Source: an uncultured Algibacter sp. (lineage in GTDB: Bacteria > Bacteroidota > Bacteroidia > Flavobacteriales > Flavobacteriaceae). From it: DNA of 64,000 nucleotides. Below, one piece after another: positions 39,700 through 53,299 of the stretch (position 1 is the first letter of the stretch; every line of letters starts with the position of its first letter). The position numbers were made by a program, and so were the translations under genes. The stretch is taken from contig CANMZT010000012.1 of NCBI GenBank assembly GCA_947502405.1, positions 62,001 through 126,000 on the forward strand. Direction: 5' to 3'. The notes below the pieces were generated by a model, which made no database searches, was not told where the DNA came from, and worked only from the letters and a program-made list of their open reading frames with translations.

Positions 39700-40192
39700 A
39701 TCCATCCGCCAAATTCAAACCACAAAATCTAATTAAAGTACGATTTGCAAAAGCCTAAATTTCAGCATAAAAAAAGACGCCTAATAGCATCCTTCTGAAT
39801 ACAAACAAATATACGAAATTCTACACCCATTTAAAAGCATTTCATCGATGTGACGCAATAATTATCAACAATTGTTAATTACTCAAAAGTCGCTTAAATC
39901 GTCTAAAAACGCCTTAAAATAGATTTTGTGGTTTTTTATTCATTTTACAAAACAGTCAAAACTCAAAATGTCTTAAACCGCATTTTTTAACTTCAATTTA
40001 CCCATCATTTACTCACAAAAAGTCAGCAAAAATGCGCTAAATAACACTAATGTTTTTAAAATGTATTAAATATAAATAAGTAATTACTACAAATACACTA
40101 ACAACCTTTCAAATTAACTTTACGTTTTTTAATAATTTCACAATACAATACAGTATATCTCTAAAAATAGTGTGTACTCTATTTATTCTATA
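39700..40192. other. AT-rich intergenic stretch, no gene seen
   Basis: About 490 bp between repeat copy B and the attenuator promoter. I see no open frame with a plausible start and composition, no tRNA-like cloverleaf and no strong hairpin. It contains many short AT runs and several near matches to promoter boxes, none convincing. Confidence 0.5.
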
Positions 40193-40200
40193 TATATTTG
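40193..40200 (+). promoter_or_regulatory. -7 box of the gatCA-gatB/aspS operon
   Basis: TATATTTG is an exact TAnnTTTG match. It lies 17 bp before the leader peptide ATG, giving a short leader transcript start near 40206. The -33 box is weak. Confidence 0.5.
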
Positions 40201-40217
40201 AACTCGTTAAAATAAAC

Positions 40218-40265
40218 ATGAGAAACAATAACAATAATAATAATTTCAATAATCCTAATATCTAG
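40218..40265 (+). CDS. Asn-rich attenuator leader peptide (15 residues)
   Basis: ATG at 40218, stop TAG at 40263-40265. It reads MRNNNNNNNFNNPNI: 10 of 15 residues are Asn, including seven in a row, using both AAC and AAT. The antiterminator strand begins four bases after the stop and the terminator follows, the standard layout of a ribosome-sensing leader peptide. It would stall when Asn-tRNA(Asn) is scarce. The operon behind it makes exactly that product, so chance is unlikely. Confidence 0.85.
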   Translation: MRNNNNNNNFNNPNI

Positions 40266-40295
40266 GGTTCGGAAGGTTATTGTTTAAAAATATAT

Positions 40296-40326
40296 AAAGC
40301 CTTCCGATATCGGAAGGCTTTTTTTT
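40296..40326 (+). terminator. Attenuator terminator hairpin
   Basis: A perfect 13-bp inverted repeat AAAGCCTTCCGAT / ATCGGAAGGCTTT with T-run to 40326. It lies 45 bp before gatC, in the leader of the operon instead of behind a gene, which marks it as regulatory. Confidence 0.92.
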
Positions 40327-40370
40327 GAGACTATTTTAAAACAGTCTCTATAATCCAAAAATCAATAAAG

Positions 40371-40637
40371 ATGAGTAAAATCATGACAGTCGACGTATTG
40401 TCGAGCATTAAAGGAGCGCAGCCATCAGAGGCTGTAAACAAATTATTTGAGGTTATTAAAAATGCCAATACCACAAATAATAATACTTTTAATCATCATA
40501 ATAATGCGGTGTCTTTAAATGATTTAAGAGACGATGTGGTTATAGATAGTTCTGCTACAGAAAAACAAATCATCATCGAGAACTTCCCAAAAGAAAAAAA
40601 CGGCTATTTAGTAGTTTCTAAAGTTATAGAAGAATAA
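40371..40637 (+). CDS. gatC: GatC-like amidotransferase subunit, atypical N-terminus
   Basis: 88 residues. The C-terminal half matches GatC: LRDDVVIDSSATEKQIIIENFPKEKNGYLVVSKVIEE corresponds to the usual LRxDxV ... NAPxxxxGxFxVPKVIE. The N-terminal half does not show the normal GatC helical hairpin (LAxLAxLxLxxxE...); it is MSKIMTVDVLSSIKGAQPSEAVNKLFEVIKNA followed by an Asn/His-rich stretch (residues 31-45, eight Asn and two His). GatC wraps around GatA and tethers GatB; how this form does so is unclear. It is the first structural gene after the Asn attenuator, 2 bp before gatA. Confidence 0.75.
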   Translation: MSKIMTVDVLSSIKGAQPSEAVNKLFEVIKNANTTNNNTFNHHNNAVSLNDLRDDVVIDSSATEKQIIIENFPKEKNGYLVVSKVIEE

Positions 40638-40639
40638 TT

Positions 40640-42040
40640 ATGAGCTCGCAGATACACAAAATTCATCAGCAATTGATGAACAAGGAAATCACTTGTACCG
40701 CGCTGGTTCAAGAAAAATTAGACCTATTAAAACAGAATACTAACAACACCGTTAATGCCTTACTAGATACTATGGCGTTAGATTTAGCCGCCAAAGTAGA
40801 TGCCAAAATAGCCAATGGAGAACCTATTGGTTTGCTAGAAGGGATTCCTTTTGGTATTAAAGATGTATATATGGTGCAAGGCACGTATACTACAGCAAGT
40901 TCAGAATTATTAAAGAATTACAAATCGGCTTACACAGCAACAGCTATTCAAAAATTATTGGATGCTGGAGCAATTCCATTAGTTAAAGAAAACTGCGATA
41001 GTTTTGGTCACGGTTCTTCTTCTGAAAACACCATTTTCGGTGCCGTAAAAAACGCTATAAACCCAGATTTAGTTGGTGGTGGTTCTAGTGGCGGTTCTGC
41101 TGTTAACGTTGCTAAAGATTATACGGTATTTTCTATTGGGGGCGATACTGGTGGTTCTGTACGTCAACCTGCTGGCTACAATAATGTTTATGGTTTAAAA
41201 CCAACTTACGGACGTATTTCACGTTACGGATTAATGGCTTACGCATCCTCTACAGATTGTGTTGGACCAATTGCAAAATCAATCGAAGATATTCGTATTG
41301 TTTTAAATGTCATGAGCGGAAAAGATATTAAAGATCAGACCTCTTATGCTTCCGCAGAAATAACTCAAGATGCTATTTTAACTTCGGATAGCATAAAAAC
41401 AGTCGGTTATTTCAAAAATTTCATTGAAAGTGATGCTATTGATGCTGAAGTCAAATCTGATTTCTTAGCAACTATAGAAAACATAAAAGCGAAAGGCATA
41501 GAAGTAAAAGCTTTAGATTTCTTTGAATCTGAAACGTTAGTTTCAACCTATTATACCTTAGCTATGGCAGAAACAGCCTCTAACCTATCTCGATTAGATG
41601 GGACAAATTACGGTAACCGTATTGAAGCTGATAATTTAAAAGAAACCTATGCAGTTACACGTTCTGAAAACTTCTCTGAAGAAACAAAACGCAGAATTGT
41701 TGGTGGAAACCAAGTATTATCTCAAGGGTTTTCAGACGAAATCTATTTAAAAGGATTAGCGCTTAGAGATAGCATCGCTAATAATTTTGAAAATGATTTT
41801 AACGAAGTTGACATCATCATTTCTCCTGTTACACCTAGTACACCTCCAAAAATTGGAGATAGTTTAAAAGATCCACACGCCATGTATTTATCTGATGCAT
41901 ACACCGTTGGTTTCAGTTTAGGGCAATTACCAACCTTAACCGTTCCTCAAGGGACTGCAACAGGTTTACAAATTACGGCGGCAAAAAATAATGACGAACT
42001 CGTTTTGAAGTTTGCTAACTTCTTAAAAGACACGATATAA
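40640..42040 (+). CDS. gatA: Asp-tRNA(Asn)/Glu-tRNA(Gln) amidotransferase subunit A
   Basis: 466 residues, an amidase-signature enzyme that frees ammonia from glutamine (or asparagine) for GatB. The Ser-cisSer-Lys triad is visible: Lys74 in PFGIKDVYMV, the Ser pair in GGGSSGGSAVNVA, and the nucleophile in GGDTGGSVRQPAG. GLKPTYGRISRYGL and the C-terminal QLPTLTVPQG-like segment are typical. Length is close to the family norm. Its TAA overlaps the ATG of the GatB-AspRS gene by one base, so the three proteins are made together. Confidence 0.95.
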   Translation: MSSQIHKIHQQLMNKEITCTALVQEKLDLLKQNTNNTVNALLDTMALDLAAKVDAKIANGEPIGLLEGIPFGIKDVYMVQGTYTTASSELLKNYKSAYTATAIQKLLDAGAIPLVKENCDSFGHGSSSENTIFGAVKNAINPDLVGGGSSGGSAVNVAKDYTVFSIGGDTGGSVRQPAGYNNVYGLKPTYGRISRYGLMAYASSTDCVGPIAKSIEDIRIVLNVMSGKDIKDQTSYASAEITQDAILTSDSIKTVGYFKNFIESDAIDAEVKSDFLATIENIKAKGIEVKALDFFESETLVSTYYTLAMAETASNLSRLDGTNYGNRIEADNLKETYAVTRSENFSEETKRRIVGGNQVLSQGFSDEIYLKGLALRDSIANNFENDFNEVDIIISPVTPSTPPKIGDSLKDPHAMYLSDAYTVGFSLGQLPTLTVPQGTATGLQITAAKNNDELVLKFANFLKDTI

Positions 42041-45000
42041 TGGAACTAGAACAATTAAACGACTTGCTTAAAAAGCACGAATTAGAGTTAGTAATCGGTC
42101 TTGAAACACACGTTCGATTAAACACAAAAACGAAGTTATTCTGTTCTTGTGCCAATCAAGAAATAGAACAACCTAATCAAAATATCTGTTCGGTTTGTAC
42201 GGGACAAATGGGTGTTTTACCTGCCATTAATAAAGAAGCCATTAACAAAGCCATTTACTTCGGTAAAGCTGTAAAATCTACTTTTGAAAATGATGTGATT
42301 TCTTGGGATAGAAAACATTATGAATATCCTGATAATCCAAAAAATATTCAAATTACGCAGTTTCATAACCCAGTAATTCCAGACGGACAAGTATCTTGTT
42401 TCCGTAATGATGGTTCGCAGTTTACGGTAAATTTAACGCAAGTCCATATTGAAGAAGATGCCGCTAAATTAATGCACGAGAAAAAAACCTCGTTAGTTGA
42501 TTTTAACAAAGCTGGCGTGCCACTTATTGAAATTGTAACCGAGCCATGTATTCGTCATATTGAAGATGCATCAACTTATGCGCAATACATTCAACGTATT
42601 GTTCAAAATTTAGAAATCTCTGAAGCCAACCTTGAAAAAGGCGAATTCAAATCGGATGTTTCTGTTTCGCTTCGGAAAAAACACGATTATAATTTAAATC
42701 CGCGTACCGAAATAAAAAACTTAAACTCGTTTAAGTTTATGGTGGAAGCTCTAAAAGAGGAAGTTGAAAAACAACTCAACTATTTCTTGGAACACAAAGA
42801 ATTTAGACCAGACCAAACTACTGTTTTGTGGGATGCAGAATTGAAGCAAACCAAAACCATGCGTAAAAAAGAATTTGAAGCAGATTATCGTTTTATTTCT
42901 GAGCCAGATTTACCGTTTGTAAGCATAAAAGAAGTGGTTGAATCTATTGATGTAGATTTGAGCACACTCCCTTTTGCGGTTGAATCTATTCTTATAAAAG
43001 GGGGTGTTTTACCGCAAGACGCTAAGTTTTTTACAGCAGACTCCTTACGCTCTGAAACTTTTGTTGCAATTAACAACGTGATTAAAGACCCATCATTTGT
43101 TGCAAAAACATTGGTTAATAATATTGATGCTGAAGCTTATGGAGACATTCATAGGATTGAACATTTAATTGAAATTTTTCAACTATTTAAAGATGAAAAA
43201 ATTACTTCAGTTTTAGTTCAAAATGCCATAACATCTTATTTAAAAGATAGAGAATTCAACTATAACCAATATTTTGAAGATAACACGATTTCGGAATCTC
43301 AAATTGAAGAAGCTATTTCAAAAGTGATTTCAGATAATGAAGCCATTGCTAACGATATCCGTTCTGGAAACCAAGGAAAAGCAGGTATTTTAGTAGGAAA
43401 AGTGATTGGTATTATTGGAAAAGGTGCTTCAGGAAAAGTGATTCGTGAAGGGATTTTAAGTGCGCTTGCAGGAGAGGACGGAAGCCCGAAGACCGAAGAC
43501 GGAAGTGCTTCTAAACAACAAACACCTCAACAACAAAGCACAAAAACCAAAGAGGAAGAGGTATTACCAGAAATTCCAATCATCATTAAAGATGAATACC
43601 GAACCCACGTCATTTCCGATATCTCAGATGAGAGCATCAACGAAAATGTAACGCTTTCTGGATGGGTGTCTAGTGTGCGTGACCATGGCGAATTAATCTT
43701 TATCGATTTACGCGACTCGAGTACACAAGTATTCCAAGTACGTTTAAGTAGAGAATCGTTTGCAAATTTAGACGAACTCGTAAAGCTAAAACCAGAAACT
43801 GTTATTACCGTGTCTGGAACCATTTTACAACGTAAAGAAGATGATTATAACGCTGCGTTAAGAACGGGTAAAATTGAATTAGAAGCTAAAGATTTAGAAA
43901 TTTTAAACCTTTCTAAAACCCTGCCTTTTGAAATAAAACGTGCTACAAAAACAAATGAAAATGTTCGTTTTCAATACAAATATTTAGACCATAGAAATAA
44001 CGATGTCCGAAGAGTGATTGTTAACCGCCACAAGGTTATCAAAATGATGCGTGATATTTTAGACGAGCAAGATTTCCTTGAAATTGAAACACCAATTTTA
44101 AGTGCGGGAACTGATGAAGGCGCACGTGAATTTATTGTGCCAACACGTAAGCAAGCAGGTTCGTTTTACACGTTACCACAAGCACCTCAGCAATTTAAAC
44201 AAATGTTAATGGTTTCTGGTTATGAAAAATATTTCCAGATTGCACGTTGTTTTAGAGATGAAGATTCTCGTGGCGACCGCCAACCAGAATTCACGCAGTT
44301 AGATATTGAAATGGCGTATGCCAGCATGCAGCAAATCATAGATTTAAATACTGAGATGTTTAACGGTATTGTTGAAAAAATATATGGCAAAAAATGGATT
44401 TTACGTCCGTTTGAGGTATTAACCTATAAACAAGCTATGGACGATTATGGCTGTGATAGACCAGATTTACGTTTCGGTTTAAAACTACAAGACATTACAG
44501 ATATTGTAAAAGACACGACCTTCCAAGTATTTAGTAAACCTATTGAAGAAGGCGGTATTGTAAAATGTATTAAAGTCTCTGCTGAAGAACAAGGTAACAA
44601 GCGTTTATCAAAAGGTCAGATTGAGAAGTTAACTGCTTTGGCACAAAGTCATGGTCTTGGTGGATTAGCATACATTATTGTTAATGAAAACGATTTACAA
44701 TCGCCAATTATTAAGTTTTTAGGCGAAGCTATTGCTGCAGGCATCATTAAAACAACAGCTGCTAAAGTAGGCGATATTGTGTTCTTTTCAGCTGCTGATT
44801 ATGCTACTGCAAATAAAGCTTTAGATGCTGTTCGTCAAGAATTAGGTAAGATGCTTCGTTTAATCAATCCGAAGGAATTAAGACCAGCTTGGGTGATTGA
44901 TTTCCCAATGTTTGAAAAAACAGATGAAGGCCGTTGGACGTTTACTCACAATCCATTCTCAATGCCAGCAATATATGATATTGAAAAACACATGAATGGT

Positions 45001-45378
45001 AAGGAAGATGAAATTGGTAGCATTATCGCGCAACAATACGACCTTATATTAAATGGTTATGAAATTGGTGGTGGTTCTGTGCGTGCACATAAACCTGAAA
45101 TTTTAGAAGCCACATACAAAAACATGGGTTATAATAAAGACGAGATGATGAAGAGTGTTGGCACCATGTACAAAGCCTTCCATTATGGCGCACCACCTCA
45201 CGGCGGTATTGCTTGGGGTGTTGATAGATTGATGATGATTTTAGAGAAAAAAGCTTCTATTAGAGAAGTGATGGCTTTCCCAAAAACAGGAACTAGTGAA
45301 GATTTACTCTTTGGTGCACCTTCTCAGTTATCTGATAAAAAGGTGGAAGAAATGAATGTGAAGGTGATGCGGAAGTAA
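42040..45378 (+). CDS. gatB-aspS: GatB-aspartyl-tRNA synthetase fusion
   Basis: 1112 residues in one frame. Residues about 1-478 are GatB: [20 protein letters not shown], the zinc cysteines CSC...CSVC, [25 protein letters not shown], and the C-terminal tRNA-binding YqeY-like tail. A linker rich in Gln, Thr and Lys (about 479-512) leads to AspRS: OB-fold ([23 protein letters not shown]), class II motif 2 [21 protein letters not shown], the GAD insert and motif 3 [14 protein letters not shown]. Fusion puts Asp-tRNA formation and its amidation on one chain, a covalent transamidosome. I know this fusion from flavobacterial annotation. The AspRS part should be non-discriminating to serve tRNA(Asn). 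Confidence 0.95.
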   Translation: [1112 protein letters not shown]

Positions 45379-46498: not shown

Positions 46499-49400
46499 TT
46501 ACTCGATAATTATTCTTTTTGTAATTTTTATGCCATCTGTAAGAACTTTAACAAAATAAACACCACTATCAACATTTAACATATTAACATTAAATTTTTC
46601 AGATGGATTTTCCATTATATCTCGTTGTATTAATCGTCCTGAAACATCAAAAACTTCAACTATATCAATTTTTCTACCTAGTAGACTCTTTACTGTAAAT
46701 TGGCCTTTATTTGGTACTGGATAAACCATTAAATAATTACTTAAGGTTTCATCATTTTCAACCGAAAGTACCTTCTCAACTATTAGCGAAACATTATCAA
46801 TAAGTGCTTTAGCTGGTCCAGTATTAGTATCTGGAACAAATGCTTCAAAATTAATTACTATTGACTCACCAGCATAATTACTTAAGTTTTGTAGAATATC
46901 CTCGTTAAATGAAATATCGAGACCACCAGTATCTGGAGATAATCCAAATTCTATTTCTTCAACATTAAACAATTCTACTCCTGTTAAATCGGTGAATCTT
47001 ACTGTAAACACCCTATTTTGAGTCGGGTTTCCAAAAGTTAATTGGTAATTTACTTTAAAATCAAATGTTAACATAGCTGCTGTTGAAGTTATAATATCGC
47101 TAGGCACCTCAATGGTTTGTTGCAAGCTATAAGTTGTACCTGCATCACCATCAAAAGATGTAAAAGCAGCGTAAAATCCTTCCGTTCGAGTAATATTATT
47201 AACTATAGTACAAACAGATTGCGAATTAGTTAACACATTAAAATTCATTCTACATCCAGAAAACACATTTGGTCCTCCTAAAGTCCATCCCGACAGAGAA
47301 CCGCATTCAAAACCACCATTAGTTATTAAGTTACTGGTATCTACATCAGGGTCGCAAGCCGTCATAAAATTTAAAGGTCCGATAACATTACTAAACCCTC
47401 CATCTATACAGTTAGTCTTAATATAAACATCATAAGAAGTACTTGGGTTTAAGCCTGATATGGTTTCTGTTTTAGTATTAGAAACAACTGTATTACCACT
47501 TCCTAAAGAAAAACCTTGTAGACCATACTCTAAAGTCCAATTAGTTTCGGAATCATTTTGATCCCAACTAAATTCAACCTCAGTTGGCAATATGTTTGTA
47601 GCAACAAAGTTGTTTGGTGCTGAACAAGAAACAGGAGTAACAAAACCAATATATCCTGTCCAATTACTGTACCCATCTATACCACAATTACTTCTTAAAT
47701 AAACATAATATAGTGTATCAGGTAATAAGTTTTCTATATCTATAGAATTTGTCGAGCTAGTTTGCACAGAACCTATACCATTTCCTGGATTAAAGAATCC
47801 AGCGTTATATTCTACTTCCCACTCTGAGACATCAATATTATCATCCCAACTTAGAGAAACACTATTCTTAGTTACACTTTCAGTCATAAAACCTGTAGGA
47901 ATAGTACATGCTACTTCAGTTCTAAAAGCTATCGAAATATTATCACTATACCCATCATCTACTCCACAATCTCTTCTTAAATAGGCATAATATAATGTGT
48001 CAGGAACTAGATTTTCAATAGTAATTGAGTTTGATGAAGTGGTTTCTACTGTTCCTGCTCCTGGAGAAAAGAAGCCTTCTGCATACTCGATCTCCCATGT
48101 TGCATTATCAGTTATATCATCCCAAGATAATTCAGCCGTATTCTTTGTTGTTGATACAACCCTGAAACTAGTTGGGGCTGGACATAACTCTATAGTAGAA
48201 AAACGAATAGGCCCAATAAACTCACTTGAATCACCAATATCACAAACTGCTCTTATATATACATCATAACTACGTTCAGGGACTAAGTCTGAAAGAACAT
48301 AAGGGTTATCTTCTGTAAAAATGGTTGTTGCTTCAGCAGTTGTAAATCCAGAAAACCCATATTGAATTTCCCAATTCACCTCATTATCAGTAGCCACCCA
48401 ACTCAATTCTGCAGTTCTACCAGTAATATTATTTACTAGAGGGTTTACGGGATTGGTACAGGAGGGTAACTCACGAAAACTTACTTCATCAATTAATATA
48501 TCATTATATCTAGCACTGCCGCTTTGACTTAATGTAACACTGAATTCAATCTGTATATCTGTACTTGTAAATGCATAATCACTTAAATCTATTACAAAAT
48601 CCTTCCATATATTCGTATCACTATTAACTGTAATAATATCAGTAAATAATGTGCCATCGGAATCATAGATAGAGACATTTAGTGTATTATATATGTCATC
48701 TATTGTATTTTTACTAAAAACTGAGAATGAAATAGCTGGATTAGTGAGAGCTGAGATATCCACCCACGGAGACTTCAAAACGTAATCACCATTAAAAGCA
48801 CTTAAATCCCCATCTAACCATGCATAATTAGAATTATTTGATGGGTTTCTGTCTTGAACATTACCTGCCCCCCAACTAGCAAAAGTGTTAAAATTCCAAT
48901 TCCCATTATCACTTTGACTCCAACAGTTTGGAATTGTATTCTGAAAAACAAAACTTTCAGTATAAGGTGCTTCTAGTACACCACAATCAGTTCTAAACTT
49001 AATAGGCCCTAAAACATCACTAAATCCTCCAACTTCACAATTAGTCCTGATATATACATCATAAGGTGTATCTGGAGTTAAACTAGTAATTGTTTGGTTT
49101 AGGGTAGATGCCGCTATCTCTATACCTTCACCAAAAACAAAGCCTTCAATACCGTACTCTATAGTCCAATTCTCTTCATCATCACTTTGCTCCCAAGAAA
49201 AATCAACTTGTCTCGCTTCTATATTAGATACCTGAAAATTATTTGGAGCCTCACAATTTGGTCTATCTTCACATATTATTGCAGCATCCCAACCAGAACT
49301 GGTTGCACTACTATCTGATGTAAATAGAAAAGTTAAAGCTCCACTCTCATGAGTTGATACTATATTACCTGGATTAGTAGTATAAGTACCAATTAGAGTA

Positions 49401-52400
49401 GACTGAGTATCTGGCCCATCAAAAATTCTTAAACGATCGCAACATGTTTCTACTGAAAAACTATCAAAAATAACTCTAACCCTTTCATCTAAAGTTTTAG
49501 GATAAATCACTGTAGTTATATTTTCTCTATTAGAATAGTTTCCAGATTCACCACCAGAATCATAAAATCGATCTCCTCCACAATAATCTGGAGTCGTTTT
49601 AAAATTAATAGGACCTACCCAATTACTAAAACCATCGCCTTCAGCCTCACAATTAGATCTTATGTAAAATTGATAATCTGTATTAGAATTTAATGCTTCA
49701 ATTAAAACTTGTGCTTCTATTACCTCTTGCATGGTTCCTGAACCTAAAGAAAATCCATTTAAGCCATACTCTACTTGCCAATTAGAAATACCTGTGTTTA
49801 AGTTTTCCCATGTAGCTATTGCGGTTTCATTAGTAATATTAGAAAAACTCACATTAAAAGGTGAAGCACATAGCTCTGTAGTTGTGAATCTAAAAGGCCC
49901 TAAAACCTCACTAAAACCTCCTAAATCACAAATAGTCTTTATATATACATCATAAGAGGTAATTGGTAATAGATTCTCTATTCTAACGGATTCTACTGAA
50001 GTTGTAATAATTGTTCCATTGCCACGAACAAAACCTACTTCCCCATATTCTATTTCCCAATTGGCATCATCACCTACAGCATTCCATTCAAAACTAGCTT
50101 CGTCACCTTCTAAACCTGTATTCTGAAAGTTTATTGGTGTAGCACAATTAGGTTTTTGTTCACATACAATTGTTGCATCCCACCCTGGAGCATTTCCAAA
50201 TCCATCAGAAATAAAAATAAAAGTTAGTGCTCCTGATTCGTGTGTAGAAACCAATTCTTGACCTTGTAATTCTGATCTTCTAAAGCCACCTATAAAAGTA
50301 TCATTTTGACTTTCTCCATCAAAGACATACAAAATATCATTCCAATTACCCAAGTTGAATACATCAAATCGAGCTCGGATTCTATCAGTATCAGAATCAG
50401 GATAAATTTGTGTGGTTATATTTTCATTATCTTTAAAGCTATCATTTAACCCACCCGAATCGTAAAAATGGTCTCCATTACAATAATTAAAACTAGTTGT
50501 TACTAAAATAGGGCCTACCATATCACTAGAGCCAGATATACTACAGTTTCCGTTTATATAAAAGTCATACTTAGTACCAGACTCTAAACCTTCAGCTATA
50601 AATTCCTTTTCGGTTATCGTTACGCTTGTTCCAGAGCCCAAAACAAATCCAGAAACTCCATATTCTACTGTCCATGAATTTGTACTTATCGTATCTTCCC
50701 AAGTCACTTCGATGCTATCAAAATCTACATTTAAAATTTCTATATTAGTGGGTGTACTACATTTTGTGGAAAATATAAAAACATCTGAAAAACTAGAAAA
50801 ACCACATGGATTTAACGTTCGAACTCTCCAATAATATTCTGCATTATTTTCTAAGTTTGAAGGAATATAAAATAAACTTTGTGTTGTAGAATCTTCGATA
50901 ATATTAGTAAATACATCGTCTGTAGCTATCTCGATTTGATATGAAACTGAATTACTATCATTTTCCCAATTAAATTCAACATCAATATCTTGTAACTCAG
51001 AGTTATTTAAGGGTGAAATAAGGTTAGGTACAACATTATTTGCAGCGTAAACTGAAAAATCTAACTCAATACTTTTCTCGATACCATTTGTTGATATACC
51101 TTCTAAATTAAAAGAATAGTTTCCTACCCCCAAGTTATCAATACCCTCAAGTGTAACATTAAAGGGGGTACCTTCTATAGATTGTTCTGTAAAATTATCT
51201 TGAGTAAACAACACACTAGTTCCCGGAGGCAAACTAGTAGCTGTTAAAGCTACAGATTCATCAAAATCTAAAAAAGTTTTATATTCGAGATTAAACACTG
51301 CATTTCCAGAATCGCATACATCAATTGAAGGCGACTCTGCTAATATGGCAAAATCAGATTTCTCAATTGTAAAACTCTGTTGATTTACTGCAAAGAAAAC
51401 ATTATCAACAGCCTTTATAAGTAACCTAGCACTTGTGGTAGCTTCAACATCAGGCAAACTAAACGTTTCCTCTCCATCATTTTCAGTAACTAATAAGCTG
51501 GTTGAAAATGTAAGGCCTCCATCGGTGGATAAAAATATTTCTACTTCACTGGTTCTTATTGGTTCCAAATCTGTATTAGCAACATCCCAGGTAACAGTAA
51601 CTGAATTACCTACTGTCCATATTTCTGAATTACTTACTTGCGAGGTAACTGAAAAAGGACCTGCCCCAGCTGAAACATTAATTGTAACAGCATCAGAAAC
51701 CGTTTGCCCTCCATTAATACCGTTATCGCGGACAGTCATTACAAAATTCAAGGTTCTTGATACAGAAGGCAACACCTCCCAAGTGGGCGTAATATTATTT
51801 GCTAGAACATCATTTAGATTAGGAAAATACCTCTTACCACTCAACGAAGGGGGAAAAGATCTAAACATAGGCCCCAAGGTATTGGTTGGTAAAGGTGTAT
51901 TTGTACTCTGAGGGTTTTCGGGGTCATTCTGTTCCCAACAGTATGTCAACACATCATTACCATCGGAATCTGTCGCACTTCCTTCTAACATAAAAGGTGT
52001 ACTCCTAGGGATTACATAATCTAAACCTTGGGCTACTATTGGAGCAGAATTATTAGTAGGAATTAATTCCGCGCAGTTAGCATTATCAATAGTCCAAATT
52101 GCAACATCCCTGATACTAGTATAGTTAAAATAATCATCAGAGCTAGCTTGAACATTTGGGGGGCAAATTCCAGCATAACTCATAATGGTACTTCCACTAC
52201 CTGGCTCAACTTCACTATTAAAACCACTACGACAATTACCACTACTTTGTGTATGAAATGCTCCGAATTGATGACCAAACTCATGAGCTGCCAAAAGATT
52301 CATATCATCAGTATCTGGGTTTCCATGAACACTATAGGCCTTCCCTTTTTCAATATCTGTACATACACAAGCTATACACCCTGCGTTACCATATTTGTTA

Positions 52401-53299
52401 TTATTCTCAGCATGAAACAAATGCCCCACATCATAATCATCGTTCGTAATTATACTATTGATTGTATTAGATAACTCATTTCCCAAATTTATACTTGTTG
52501 AATATGGGTCTGTGGATGGATCCAAGAAAATCAGTAAGTCAGTTTCAGCAATTAATTGCATTGTTATCCCAAAATCGCGTTCAAAAATTCCGTTCAAACG
52601 ATTTATAGAATTAACCATACCTTGCAAGACTTTTGCTTTTCTTTCAGTATCGCTATTTTCTGTACCATCCAAAAACACTTGAGAATAGTCTCCACTTACA
52701 GATAATGCTAAACGGTATCTTCTCAAATTACCATCATCAACATCCCTATTAAATACTCCAAAACCTTTAGCTCTTTTTTGTAACAAATCTTCTGTCTGAC
52801 ACTCAAAAGGATTATTGTTTGATTGACTAGAGGTAGTCTTGAATTCATGCAATGATTTACCAAGAGCCTTAACTTCAATTTTTTCATAAACTGTAGTTTG
52901 AAAAACACCAAAAAAACCAGCTTCTGGTGAATACGTAAACTGCATTGTTTTTTTTGACCCATCTATAGCTACTCCTTTATAACTTTTAATATTTGGAAAT
53001 TTTTTGGCTAAATCTGGGTGCATAACCTTGGTTTCCCTTACCATGAATTTTTTTAAATTATCATTATCAACAGGAAAACTCAATACACTAGAAGAATACT
53101 CAGATATTTTATTAAGTTCTCTCTGAAAGCTAACACTACCTAATTTATAAACAGAAGCGTTTTCTTCAGAATTGATATTAGTAGGTTTATTGGAAGAATT
53201 GATTTTTTGCCAGATATTATCTTGTGAATACGATTTTAAACAAAAAAATAAAAAAGTAAAAGTTAAGATTTTTAGAACGTGAAAAAGATGATTTACCAT
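46499..53299 (-). CDS. Giant T9SS-secreted metzincin metalloprotease with Fn3 and CUB-like modules
   Basis: 2266 residues. Signal peptide (HVLKILTFTFLFFCLKSYSQ), a propeptide, then a reprolysin-like catalytic domain (about 190-410) with zinc site HEFGHQFGAFH at 339-349 and a Met-turn STIMSYAG. Next come Ig/Fn3-like domains, then at least eight Fn3 modules of about 90 residues sharing the W-x-(V/I)-E-Y-G...Y-D-(V/F)-Y-I-x-x-x-C pattern, two CUB-like domains beginning YCxGDxFYDSGG, a MAM-like domain (APYTESF...NCWSQ) and a carbohydrate-binding-like domain near the end. The tail YPVPNKGQFTV...SGVYFVKV...TKRIIIE is a T9SS sorting domain. Probably degrades host or organic-matter proteins at the cell surface. 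Confidence 0.93.
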   Translation of the reverse strand: MVNHLFHVLKILTFTFLFFCLKSYSQDNIWQKINSSNKPTNINSEENASVYKLGSVSFQRELNKISEYSSSVLSFPVDNDNLKKFMVRETKVMHPDLAKKFPNIKSYKGVAIDGSKKTMQFTYSPEAGFFGVFQTTVYEKIEVKALGKSLHEFKTTSSQSNNNPFECQTEDLLQKRAKGFGVFNRDVDDGNLRRYRLALSVSGDYSQVFLDGTENSDTERKAKVLQGMVNSINRLNGIFERDFGITMQLIAETDLLIFLDPSTDPYSTSINLGNELSNTINSIITNDDYDVGHLFHAENNNKYGNAGCIACVCTDIEKGKAYSVHGNPDTDDMNLLAAHEFGHQFGAFHTQSSGNCRSGFNSEVEPGSGSTIMSYAGICPPNVQASSDDYFNYTSIRDVAIWTIDNANCAELIPTNNSAPIVAQGLDYVIPRSTPFMLEGSATDSDGNDVLTYCWEQNDPENPQSTNTPLPTNTLGPMFRSFPPSLSGKRYFPNLNDVLANNITPTWEVLPSVSRTLNFVMTVRDNGINGGQTVSDAVTINVSAGAGPFSVTSQVSNSEIWTVGNSVTVTWDVANTDLEPIRTSEVEIFLSTDGGLTFSTSLLVTENDGEETFSLPDVEATTSARLLIKAVDNVFFAVNQQSFTIEKSDFAILAESPSIDVCDSGNAVFNLEYKTFLDFDESVALTATSLPPGTSVLFTQDNFTEQSIEGTPFNVTLEGIDNLGVGNYSFNLEGISTNGIEKSIELDFSVYAANNVVPNLISPLNNSELQDIDVEFNWENDSNSVSYQIEIATDDVFTNIIEDSTTQSLFYIPSNLENNAEYYWRVRTLNPCGFSSFSDVFIFSTKCSTPTNIEILNVDFDSIEVTWEDTISTNSWTVEYGVSGFVLGSGTSVTITEKEFIAEGLESGTKYDFYINGNCSISGSSDMVGPILVTTSFNYCNGDHFYDSGGLNDSFKDNENITTQIYPDSDTDRIRARFDVFNLGNWNDILYVFDGESQNDTFIGGFRRSELQGQELVSTHESGALTFIFISDGFGNAPGWDATIVCEQKPNCATPINFQNTGLEGDEASFEWNAVGDDANWEIEYGEVGFVRGNGTIITTSVESVRIENLLPITSYDVYIKTICDLGGFSEVLGPFRFTTTELCASPFNVSFSNITNETAIATWENLNTGISNWQVEYGLNGFSLGSGTMQEVIEAQVLIEALNSNTDYQFYIRSNCEAEGDGFSNWVGPINFKTTPDYCGGDRFYDSGGESGNYSNRENITTVIYPKTLDERVRVIFDSFSVETCCDRLRIFDGPDTQSTLIGTYTTNPGNIVSTHESGALTFLFTSDSSATSSGWDAAIICEDRPNCEAPNNFQVSNIEARQVDFSWEQSDDEENWTIEYGIEGFVFGEGIEIAASTLNQTITSLTPDTPYDVYIRTNCEVGGFSDVLGPIKFRTDCGVLEAPYTESFVFQNTIPNCWSQSDNGNWNFNTFASWGAGNVQDRNPSNNSNYAWLDGDLSAFNGDYVLKSPWVDISALTNPAISFSVFSKNTIDDIYNTLNVSIYDSDGTLFTDIITVNSDTNIWKDFVIDLSDYAFTSTDIQIEFSVTLSQSGSARYNDILIDEVSFRELPSCTNPVNPLVNNITGRTAELSWVATDNEVNWEIQYGFSGFTTAEATTIFTEDNPYVLSDLVPERSYDVYIRAVCDIGDSSEFIGPIRFSTIELCPAPTSFRVVSTTKNTAELSWDDITDNATWEIEYAEGFFSPGAGTVETTSSNSITIENLVPDTLYYAYLRRDCGVDDGYSDNISIAFRTEVACTIPTGFMTESVTKNSVSLSWDDNIDVSEWEVEYNAGFFNPGNGIGSVQTSSTNSIDIENLLPDTLYYVYLRSNCGIDGYSNWTGYIGFVTPVSCSAPNNFVATNILPTEVEFSWDQNDSETNWTLEYGLQGFSLGSGNTVVSNTKTETISGLNPSTSYDVYIKTNCIDGGFSNVIGPLNFMTACDPDVDTSNLITNGGFECGSLSGWTLGGPNVFSGCRMNFNVLTNSQSVCTIVNNITRTEGFYAAFTSFDGDAGTTYSLQQTIEVPSDIITSTAAMLTFDFKVNYQLTFGNPTQNRVFTVRFTDLTGVELFNVEEIEFGLSPDTGGLDISFNEDILQNLSNYAGESIVINFEAFVPDTNTGPAKALIDNVSLIVEKVLSVENDETLSNYLMVYPVPNKGQFTVKSLLGRKIDIVEVFDVSGRLIQRDIMENPSEKFNVNMLNVDSGVYFVKVLTDGIKITKRIIIE

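Follow-up and report, generated by a model that had tools for sequence, protein, structure and literature searches.

Classical attenuators follow the strands 1-2-3-4 model, and in the pheST (pheM) attenuator of Escherichia coli a leader peptide controls the synthetase that makes the sensed aminoacyl-tRNA. A T-box reads uncharged tRNA directly. For the trp and his attenuators, regulation is described as a race of ribosome and polymerase (Elf and Ehrenberg, 2005, PMC1183508), and in bacilli leader peptides are reported to control hisS/hisZ (PMC2965389). In Clostridium acetobutylicum, tRNA-dependent Asn synthesis by an additional AspRS and GatCAB is described as T-box controlled (Saad 2012, 2013; via PMC4206432). 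Strong clues of leader-peptide attenuation before amino-acid operons are given for Flavobacterium psychrophilum (PMC9723704); the main text of that article, to which this statement is limited, contains neither "asparagin" nor gatB or aspS and names no Asn leader.

The locus described here, an Asn-codon leader upstream of a gatC-gatA-gatB::aspS operon, resembles the trp and his attenuators in its short ORF with regulatory codons before the first gene and in its strands 1-2-3-4. It differs from them in the sensed amino acid, Asn, and in the target, which is a tRNA-amidation operon and not a free amino-acid pathway. As in pheST and hisS/hisZ, the leader peptide would control the maker of the sensed aminoacyl-tRNA, but those systems act on direct synthetases, whereas here GatCAB and AspRS are concerned and a separate AsnRS is present in the genome. 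The leaders of F. psychrophilum belong to the same family and the same mechanism class. With the system of C. acetobutylicum, the locus would share AspRS and GatCAB under tRNA-Asn control and asparagine made on the tRNA; however, no T-box was found, and translation of Asn codons would take its place.

The mechanism class is textbook knowledge, while the amino acid, the target and the apparent serial form before asnA look new in the open-access literature searched. In this literature, neither an Asn leader peptide nor a GatB-AspRS fusion was found by title or start of abstract among the matches listed; subscription papers and supplements were outside the scope. An earlier note on this DNA, made from the sequence alone, had stated that attenuation was not known for GatCAB/AspRS. 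This agrees with the absence of Asn leaders from the searched literature, but for the target there is a precedent in the T-box of C. acetobutylicum. The system would attenuate tRNA-dependent amino-acid synthesis through a leader peptide for asparagine, and it would give a direct handle on the labour division where AsnRS and GatCAB-AspRS coexist, which is discussed for Bdellovibrio and others (PMC4206432).

Leader Region of the gatC-gatA-gatB::aspS Operon

In the window, i.e., the whole 64-kb stretch of DNA that was analyzed, the following features were annotated upstream of gatC:

40193..40200, + strand: promoter -7 box TATATTTG, matching the flavobacterial sigma-A consensus TAnnTTTG
40218..40265, + strand: leader ORF MRNNNNNNNFNNPNI, 10 Asn of 15 codons, ATG at 40218, stop TAG at 40265
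40223..40232, + strand: strand 1 (protector), AAACAATAAC, inside the Asn codons, partner 40276-40285 (fold and inverted repeat, 10/10)
40224..40244, + strand: run of seven Asn regulatory codons
40252..40268, + strand: small hairpin around the stop codon, AUCCUA / UAGGGU (fold and alignment)
40269..40285, + strand: strand 2, with TCGGAAGG(TT) as antiterminator half and GTTATTGTTT as partner of strand 1
40296..40308, + strand: strand 3, terminator left arm
40309..40326, + strand: strand 4, terminator right arm and U tract

Downstream of the leader stop follow GGT, TCGGAAGGTTATTGTTT, the terminator AAAGCCTTCCGATATCGGAAGGCTTT and a T run to 40326, and gatC starts at 40371. The gap between T run and gatC is 44 nt here, mostly 17-22 nt in other operons and 183 nt at the longest. 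The earlier note had claimed a leader peptide with 10 Asn codons in 15, an 8-base strand within four bases of its stop that is exactly complementary to the terminator left arm, and a perfect 13-bp terminator, all of which proved correct. The ORF occupies 40218-40265, and the inverted-repeat search returned the terminator arms (40296-40308 / 40309-40321) as a perfect 13-nt inverted repeat. TCGGAAGG (40269-40276), located 3 nt past the stop, is the exact complement of CCTTCCGA in the left arm (40300-40307), and in the fold this match grows to 10 bp by the addition of a U-G and a U-A pair. The 1:2 protector pairing is absent from that note and is added here: by inverted-repeat search, AAACAATAAC (40223-40232) is fully complementary to GTTATTGTTT (40276-40285) over 10 nt, in the manner of a classical protector. 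The features of an attenuator are therewith present, namely an Asn-codon ORF, a terminator before the first gene, an exclusive antiterminator, a 1:2 protector and a strand 2 beside the stop codon.

Apart from the leader, neither strand of the window has an ATG ORF of 8-25 codons in which Asn makes up at least 50%. By chance, 0.083 such Asn-rich short ORFs are expected per 64 kb (order-2 Markov sequences), and ORFs with at least 10 Asn did not occur in 60 simulations. Folded alone, the whole leader RNA forms the strand 1:2 helix and the terminator at -31.6 kcal/mol (z -4.9 against shuffles, 0/200 as good), and RNA cut before the terminator right arm is predicted to fold into the antiterminator. 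A chance origin of the leader is excluded by the 62 distinct homologous leaders described below, which keep the frame, the Asn codons, the promoter box and the 1-2-3-4 pairing plan.

An Rfam scan of 39700-40700 revealed no family at its gathering score and no T-box at E up to 5. The best match, Phe_leader (RF01859), reached 34.9 bits against a gathering score of 55; it has the leader peptide and terminator shape in common with the locus, which carries Asn instead of Phe codons. Another RNA sensor, in which the ORF would be incidental and a T-box, a riboswitch or a leader of a known family would do the sensing, could be imagined from the T-box control of the same pathway reported for C. acetobutylicum (PMC4206432) and from this weak match. 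The match reflects an attenuator-like shape. In view of the negative scan, such a sensor is practically discounted.

Between gyrB and the leader, a 22-nt inverted repeat with 91% complementarity was observed (window 39717-39738 / 39913-39934), the meaning of which is unknown.

Proposed Attenuation Mechanism

It is considered very probable, without any experiment so far, that the locus is a ribosome-mediated transcription attenuator with the logic of trp, his and pheST that monitors how much charged tRNA-Asn is available. RNA polymerase would start just 5' of the leader ORF, followed by a ribosome. With ample Asn-tRNA, this ribosome would reach the stop codon and cover strand 2, whereupon strands 3 and 4 would form the terminator and gatC-gatA-gatB::aspS would be off. 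With scarce Asn-tRNA, the ribosome would stall in the Asn run and mask strand 1, leaving strand 2 free to pair with strand 3 on its emergence; the terminator would come too late and the operon would be transcribed. The AspRS of the operon, presumably non-discriminating, and the amidotransferase would then make Asn on tRNA-Asn. Because asparagine synthetases are not found, the operon would probably be the only source of new asparagine in the cell, while AsnRS would use free or imported Asn to recharge the tRNA.

Sequence data directly show the parts, their conservation and the gene context, and the alternative structures are folding predictions. Stalling, timing, regulation in the cell, the enzyme activities and induction by Asn limitation are inferred. 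The Asn-codon attenuation of the operon proposed in the earlier note is thus supported as a reading, by 62 conserved leaders and by folding, with the stalling itself remaining an inference.

Annotation of the Operon Genes

Three genes follow the terminator:

40371..40637, + strand: gatC-like gene, 88 aa, Pfam GatC 25.4 bits (cut-off 23), NCBIfam gatC 26.2 of 47.1
40640..42040, + strand: gatA-like gene, 466 aa, TIGR00132 433.6 bits (below the cut-off of 481.1), Pfam Amidase 378.5
42040..45378, + strand: gatB::aspS fusion, 1112 aa, TIGR00133 344 bits (314.8), TIGR00459 657 (373.9)

The Pfam cut-offs were passed for GatC, Amidase, GatB_N and GatB_Yqey, and the NCBIfam cut-offs were missed by GatA and GatC. 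The operon is composed as had been claimed, of a GatC-like protein, GatA and GatB-AspRS, with GatB and a bacterial AspRS joined in one protein of 1112 aa. GatB could be identified in 23 of 149 evenly drawn family genomes, and the full-length fusion occurs in exactly these genomes.

The genome contains a second, separate AspRS (39% identical). The OB domain of the fusion AspRS carries the motif RDHG and that of the other AspRS RDKG. Among the alignments listed (5 of 14), RDHG is also found in the solved AspRSs 4o2d, 4rmf and 5w25, of which 4o2d and 4rmf are alike. Among the matches listed, 4rmf and 5w25 are called Asp/Asn enzymes by their depositors, and a tRNA(Asp) enzyme has RDLG. The His of RDHG is taken here to mark a non-discriminating AspRS; the fusion AspRS is presumably non-discriminating, an activity inferred from the motif only. 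Thermus and Deinococcus are known to have two AspRSs, of which one discriminates and the other does not (PMC6523644). U1 and A72 were read from the tRNA-Asn sequences of 29/29 genomes, of which 21 have the fusion and 8 lack it, so that the two groups are not distinguished by these bases. Since a GlnRS is present in the genome (724 bits), the amidotransferase is not needed for Gln-tRNA.

Residues 29-50 of GatC (window 40455-40520) were found to be Asn-rich, with a median of 8 Asn of 22 in the 62 operons with leader and of 9 in 31 leaderless ones, and the translation of gatC itself may be sensitive to Asn-tRNA. Judged from the list of ORFs alone, a minus-strand ORF of 2266 aa (window 46499-53299) begins like a metalloprotease, contains repeated modules and ends like a sorting domain.

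Conservation of the Leader Among Fusion Operons

In total, 101 upstream regions of gatB::aspS fusion operons were compared, 22 from family genomes and 79 from named loci, partly of the same organisms. The family set comprises 22 of 23 fusion operons, as one contig ends too early (G140), and the named loci are 79 usable ones of the best 80 among the matches listed, spanning Algibacter, Tamlana, Flavivirga, Polaribacter, Confluentibacter and others. One of the loci has an upstream region of only 158 nt (L162) and one lacks gatC (L161).

The Asn leader and terminator were found in the same arrangement in 69 of the 101 regions, i.e., in 13/22 family operons and 56/79 named loci. Algibacter luteus (L093) is among the carriers of the leader. 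A stricter exact pattern of strands 2-3-4 alone matches 58/101 regions. After seven duplicates had been dropped, 62 distinct leaders were aligned, three ends of which were lengthened by hand (T run in loop). The reading frame is kept in all 62, with an ORF length of 48, 45, 51 or 54 nt, and the stop codon is TAG in 61. The Asn runs consist of 270 AAT and 98 AAC codons and contain neither AAA nor AAG, although no other AAN triplet is as frequent in the window as AAA. This constraint on Asn codons with synonymous freedom indicates, at the level of sequence, that the frame and the Asn codons are under selection. TAnnTTTG, given as the flavobacterial sigma-A -7 consensus (PMC9723704), ends 10-23 nt 5' of the leader start in 62/62 leaders and occurs in 2.6% of random 60-mers of the window. 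The GAAGG motif starts 4-6 nt past the stop in 61/62 leaders and 0 nt past it in one. The conservation of Asn run and stop spacing upstream of gatB-aspS fusions, proposed as a check in the earlier note, is thus met by 62 distinct leaders.

A covariance model built from the alignment was used to search 397 family genomes and resulted in 37 strong (94-130 bits) and 23 weak matches (44-49 bits). At least 13 of the strong matches belonged to the training set, and all 37 are located 5' of gatC. In one of them (G124), leader and gatC lie at a contig end, for which reason this genome is not counted among the 23 with GatB. Inspection of 12 of the 23 weak matches revealed two Asn leaders before asnA, two Trp leaders, two Ile/Val leaders and six without a recognized leader.

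The leader peptides are short and strongly conserved, and FNNP is kept in 57 of 62, as would be expected of an arrest peptide whose nascent FNNPN stalls the ribosome for another signal, the Asn richness being incidental. However, the pairings UUUC:GGAA and UCCUA:UAGGA (helices 2 and 3) involve the Phe, Pro and stop codons, and the conservation of these bases is explained by their pairing in the RNA. Furthermore, the Asn run varies in length from 4 to 7, 56 of the 62 peptides are distinct, and the Asn leaders 5' of asnA have quite different ends. An arrest peptide is for these reasons judged very unlikely, and sensing of Asn-tRNA through the Asn codons is retained.

Folding and Covariation of the Leader RNA

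All 62 leaders were folded with and without a ribosome; a ribosome at the stop codon was modeled as bases masked to stop+9, an assumed footprint. Without a ribosome, the full-length fold shows the terminator and at least six 1:2 pairs in 62/62 leaders. With a ribosome at the stop, the nascent RNA forms the predicted antiterminator in 0/62 and the full-length RNA the terminator in 62/62, an outcome that the model owes to its assumption of a footprint reaching about 9 nt beyond the stop. For a ribosome stalled at every Asn codon tried, a nascent antiterminator was predicted in 62/62. Folding in both states, proposed earlier as a check, gave the two structures required, terminator with the ribosome at the stop and antiterminator on Asn stall in 62/62, if timing decides. 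When the ribosome stands at the first Asn codon, the terminator is still favored in the full-length RNA of 60/62, and in nascent RNA without a ribosome the 2:3 pairing is formed in 60/62. Equilibrium folding alone thus gives no switch, and timing must decide, as in other attenuators. The median duplex energies are -9.6 (1:2), -13.1 (2:3) and -18.2 kcal/mol (3:4).

A constitutive partial terminator, in which the hairpin does no more than reduce expression and the ORF is left over without a sensing role, would fit the equilibrium folds of the full-length RNA (terminator in 62/62 without ribosome or with it at the stop, 60/62 when stalled) as well as the many fusion operons that lack the leader unit. 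It leaves the selection on frame and Asn codons unexplained and gives no reason for the complementarity of strands 1 and 2 to persist, and little credence, less than for the arrest peptide, is given to it. The attenuator that reads Asn-tRNA remains the preferred explanation.

In the alignment, 97.8% of the 1:2 and 3:4 cells are paired (slid controls 42-70%), with 99% for helix 1 (strand 1) and 99.7% for helix 3 (stop-codon hairpin). The covariation score of 1:2/3:4 is 0.118 versus 0.101 in shuffled alignments and is reached by 0/500 shuffles. Double changes occur only in the terminator, in 3 of 24 pairs, a count reached by 139/500 shuffles, and strand 1:2 shows wobble changes only; the number of pair types is reached by 416/500 shuffles. 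For the 2:3 pairing, 91.7% of cells are paired (slid controls 28-65%) and the score is 0.050 versus 0.041 shuffled, score and paired percentage being each reached by 6/500. By the other covariation measures, 2:3 does not stand out from the shuffles (140 to 500 of 500), and in 38 sequences the bases of the outer 2:3 pair do not match. Judged from the alignment, the support by covariation is modest: of the stem covariation that was to be checked, paired percentages above the slid controls were obtained, but double changes are confined to the terminator.

Fusion Operons Without the Asn Leader

The earlier note had named homologous operons without any Asn-rich ORF or terminator as a refutation of its claim. 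Both elements are present in 69/101 regions, but 32 (31 distinct) have no Asn leader. A hidden, diverged leader was ruled out within 450 nt in the 31 distinct ones. TAnnTTT[GA] was found at most 75 nt from gatC in 27 of these 31 (exact TAnnTTTG in 15), and 18 of the 27 boxes lie 38-40 nt from gatC, which leaves little room for a leader. Because most of them have a promoter-like box near gatC, the leaderless operons look like an alternative regulatory state. Three (L130, L131, L159) have a strong hairpin and T run without an Asn ORF.

On a FastTree phylogeny of 82 fusion proteins, 57 with and 25 without leader, at least eight changes are required, of which seven are forced by starred branches. 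This rules out that the leader was gained or lost just once, and its control was gained or lost repeatedly; a gain plus losses and exchange are indistinguishable on this tree.

Asparagine Supply in Genomes With the Fusion

An intact AsnRS (598 bits) is present in the source genome, and AsnRS is over the cut-off in 148/149 family genomes, which rules out the operon as the sole Asn-tRNA route. The equation of sensed molecule and operon product in the earlier note is therefore incomplete: the operon should make Asn-tRNA, but AsnRS gives a second source.

The housekeeping AsnB (NF006949) was found over the cut-off in 0/23 genomes with the fusion versus 108/126 others, i.e., 108 of 149 (Fisher 3e-16, without correction for kinship); in two of the 23 fusion genomes, completeness is 88% and 75%. 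AsnA is over the cut-off in 10/149 family genomes and in 0/23 with the fusion; taken together, AsnA or AsnB exceeds its cut-off in 114 of the 126 genomes that lack the fusion. The presence of the covalently joined GatB-AspRS thus goes with the absence of a housekeeping asparagine synthetase. Because AsnA and housekeeping AsnB are not above cut-off, the unique supply of the operon is probably new asparagine, and more probably the operon replaces asparagine synthetase. In the simplest reading, asparagine is made on tRNA-Asn by the operon and AsnRS uses free Asn. The same division is proposed for bacteria with AsnRS and GatCAB but without AsnA/AsnB, a class that, with GlnRS present too, is given as 18 of 547 genera (PMC4206432).

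The broad asparagine-synthase model TIGR01536 is over the cut-off in 10/23 fusion genomes, including the source genome, and 13 have none; the matches of two genomes (G034 and G061) were judged by E-value. The matching protein of the source genome has 636 aa (G000:C8:79926-81617, L313:4211-6121) and lies among glycosyltransferases, a sugar transferase and an O-antigen ligase-like protein in a polysaccharide cluster. Asn synthesis by this protein is not excluded. Proteins of about 600-640 aa match TIGR01536 in other fusion genomes as well.

Asn Leaders Upstream of asnA

Two weak matches of the covariance model (G241 and G393) were identified as Asn-rich leaders with terminators 5' of AsnA, the identity of which rests on TIGR00669 (416 bits for G241). 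A search for AsnA in the 397 genomes resulted in 29 genomes with a match, 27 of them over the cut-off, and 28 of the 29 genes could be placed, one with only 44 nt of upstream sequence. Asn-rich leaders with terminator were found 5' of asnA in nine genomes (G007, G033, G053, G241, G259, G273, G276, G362, G393). Upstream of the other placed AsnA genes no Asn leader was seen, one gene start being uncertain (G252). The nine leaders are arranged as follows:

Apparent serial units: L254, L257, L259, L263, L265, L267
Single units: L256, L258, L262

In six of the nine genomes, two leader-terminator units are thus apparently in series. Under the stricter ORF criterion both ORFs are seen in two of the six, and the other four require the criterion of at least three Asn. 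In three of the six, the second ORF runs through its own terminator. The second leaders contain SPPG, SPSG, SPPQ, SPPPGG or DPPPGG, and some of these Pro motifs could presumably add a polyproline pause. An upstream partner of the terminator left arm that is reached by at most 5% of shuffles was found in 8 of 15 units, namely in 6/7 long first or single leaders and in 2/8 other units, so that the antiterminator plan before asnA is supported mainly for the long leaders. The serial leaders, which were found unexpectedly, are the most surprising part of the analysis.

That asnB shares the Asn leader was ruled out for the 30 genes examined of 108 (mostly the best-scoring ones): no Asn-rich ORF was found within 350 nt of these 30 genes, and none has a terminator, as hairpins followed by a T run in the nearest 200 nt reach -6.4 kcal/mol at most.

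The occurrence of Asn leaders before two unrelated asparagine-making systems, i.e., the same sensing logic on two unrelated enzymes, favors asparagine sensing over chance or a GatCAB-specific signal. One asnA leader (G241) resembles the gatC leader in its Asn run and TTTCAA followed by GCGGAAAGCTATTATTG, from which a common origin is possible but not shown. Only tentatively, and with the greater weight of doubt against it, a single portable asparagine leader in Flavobacteriaceae can be proposed that senses charged tRNA-Asn and was kept or moved as the enzyme was swapped, standing before the gatCAB-aspS fusion or before AsnA, there often two in series. If this were true, one device would control the asparagine supply whichever chemistry is used, with the AsnB lineages as the exception, and the serial attenuators of asnA would sharpen the response.

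Among the other weak matches, two Trp leader peptides with terminator were observed, MKNNNTHIGWWKLRNALSQ and MKNNNTHTWWWNLRNALSQ (L195 in G043 and L196 in G264, respectively). The gene behind the L195 leader resembles that of anthranilate synthase component I (TIGR00564 with 428.7 bits, short of the cut-off of 517.7). Ile/Val-rich leader peptides with terminators were found before ilvD and ilvE (L202 in G115 and L206 in G193).
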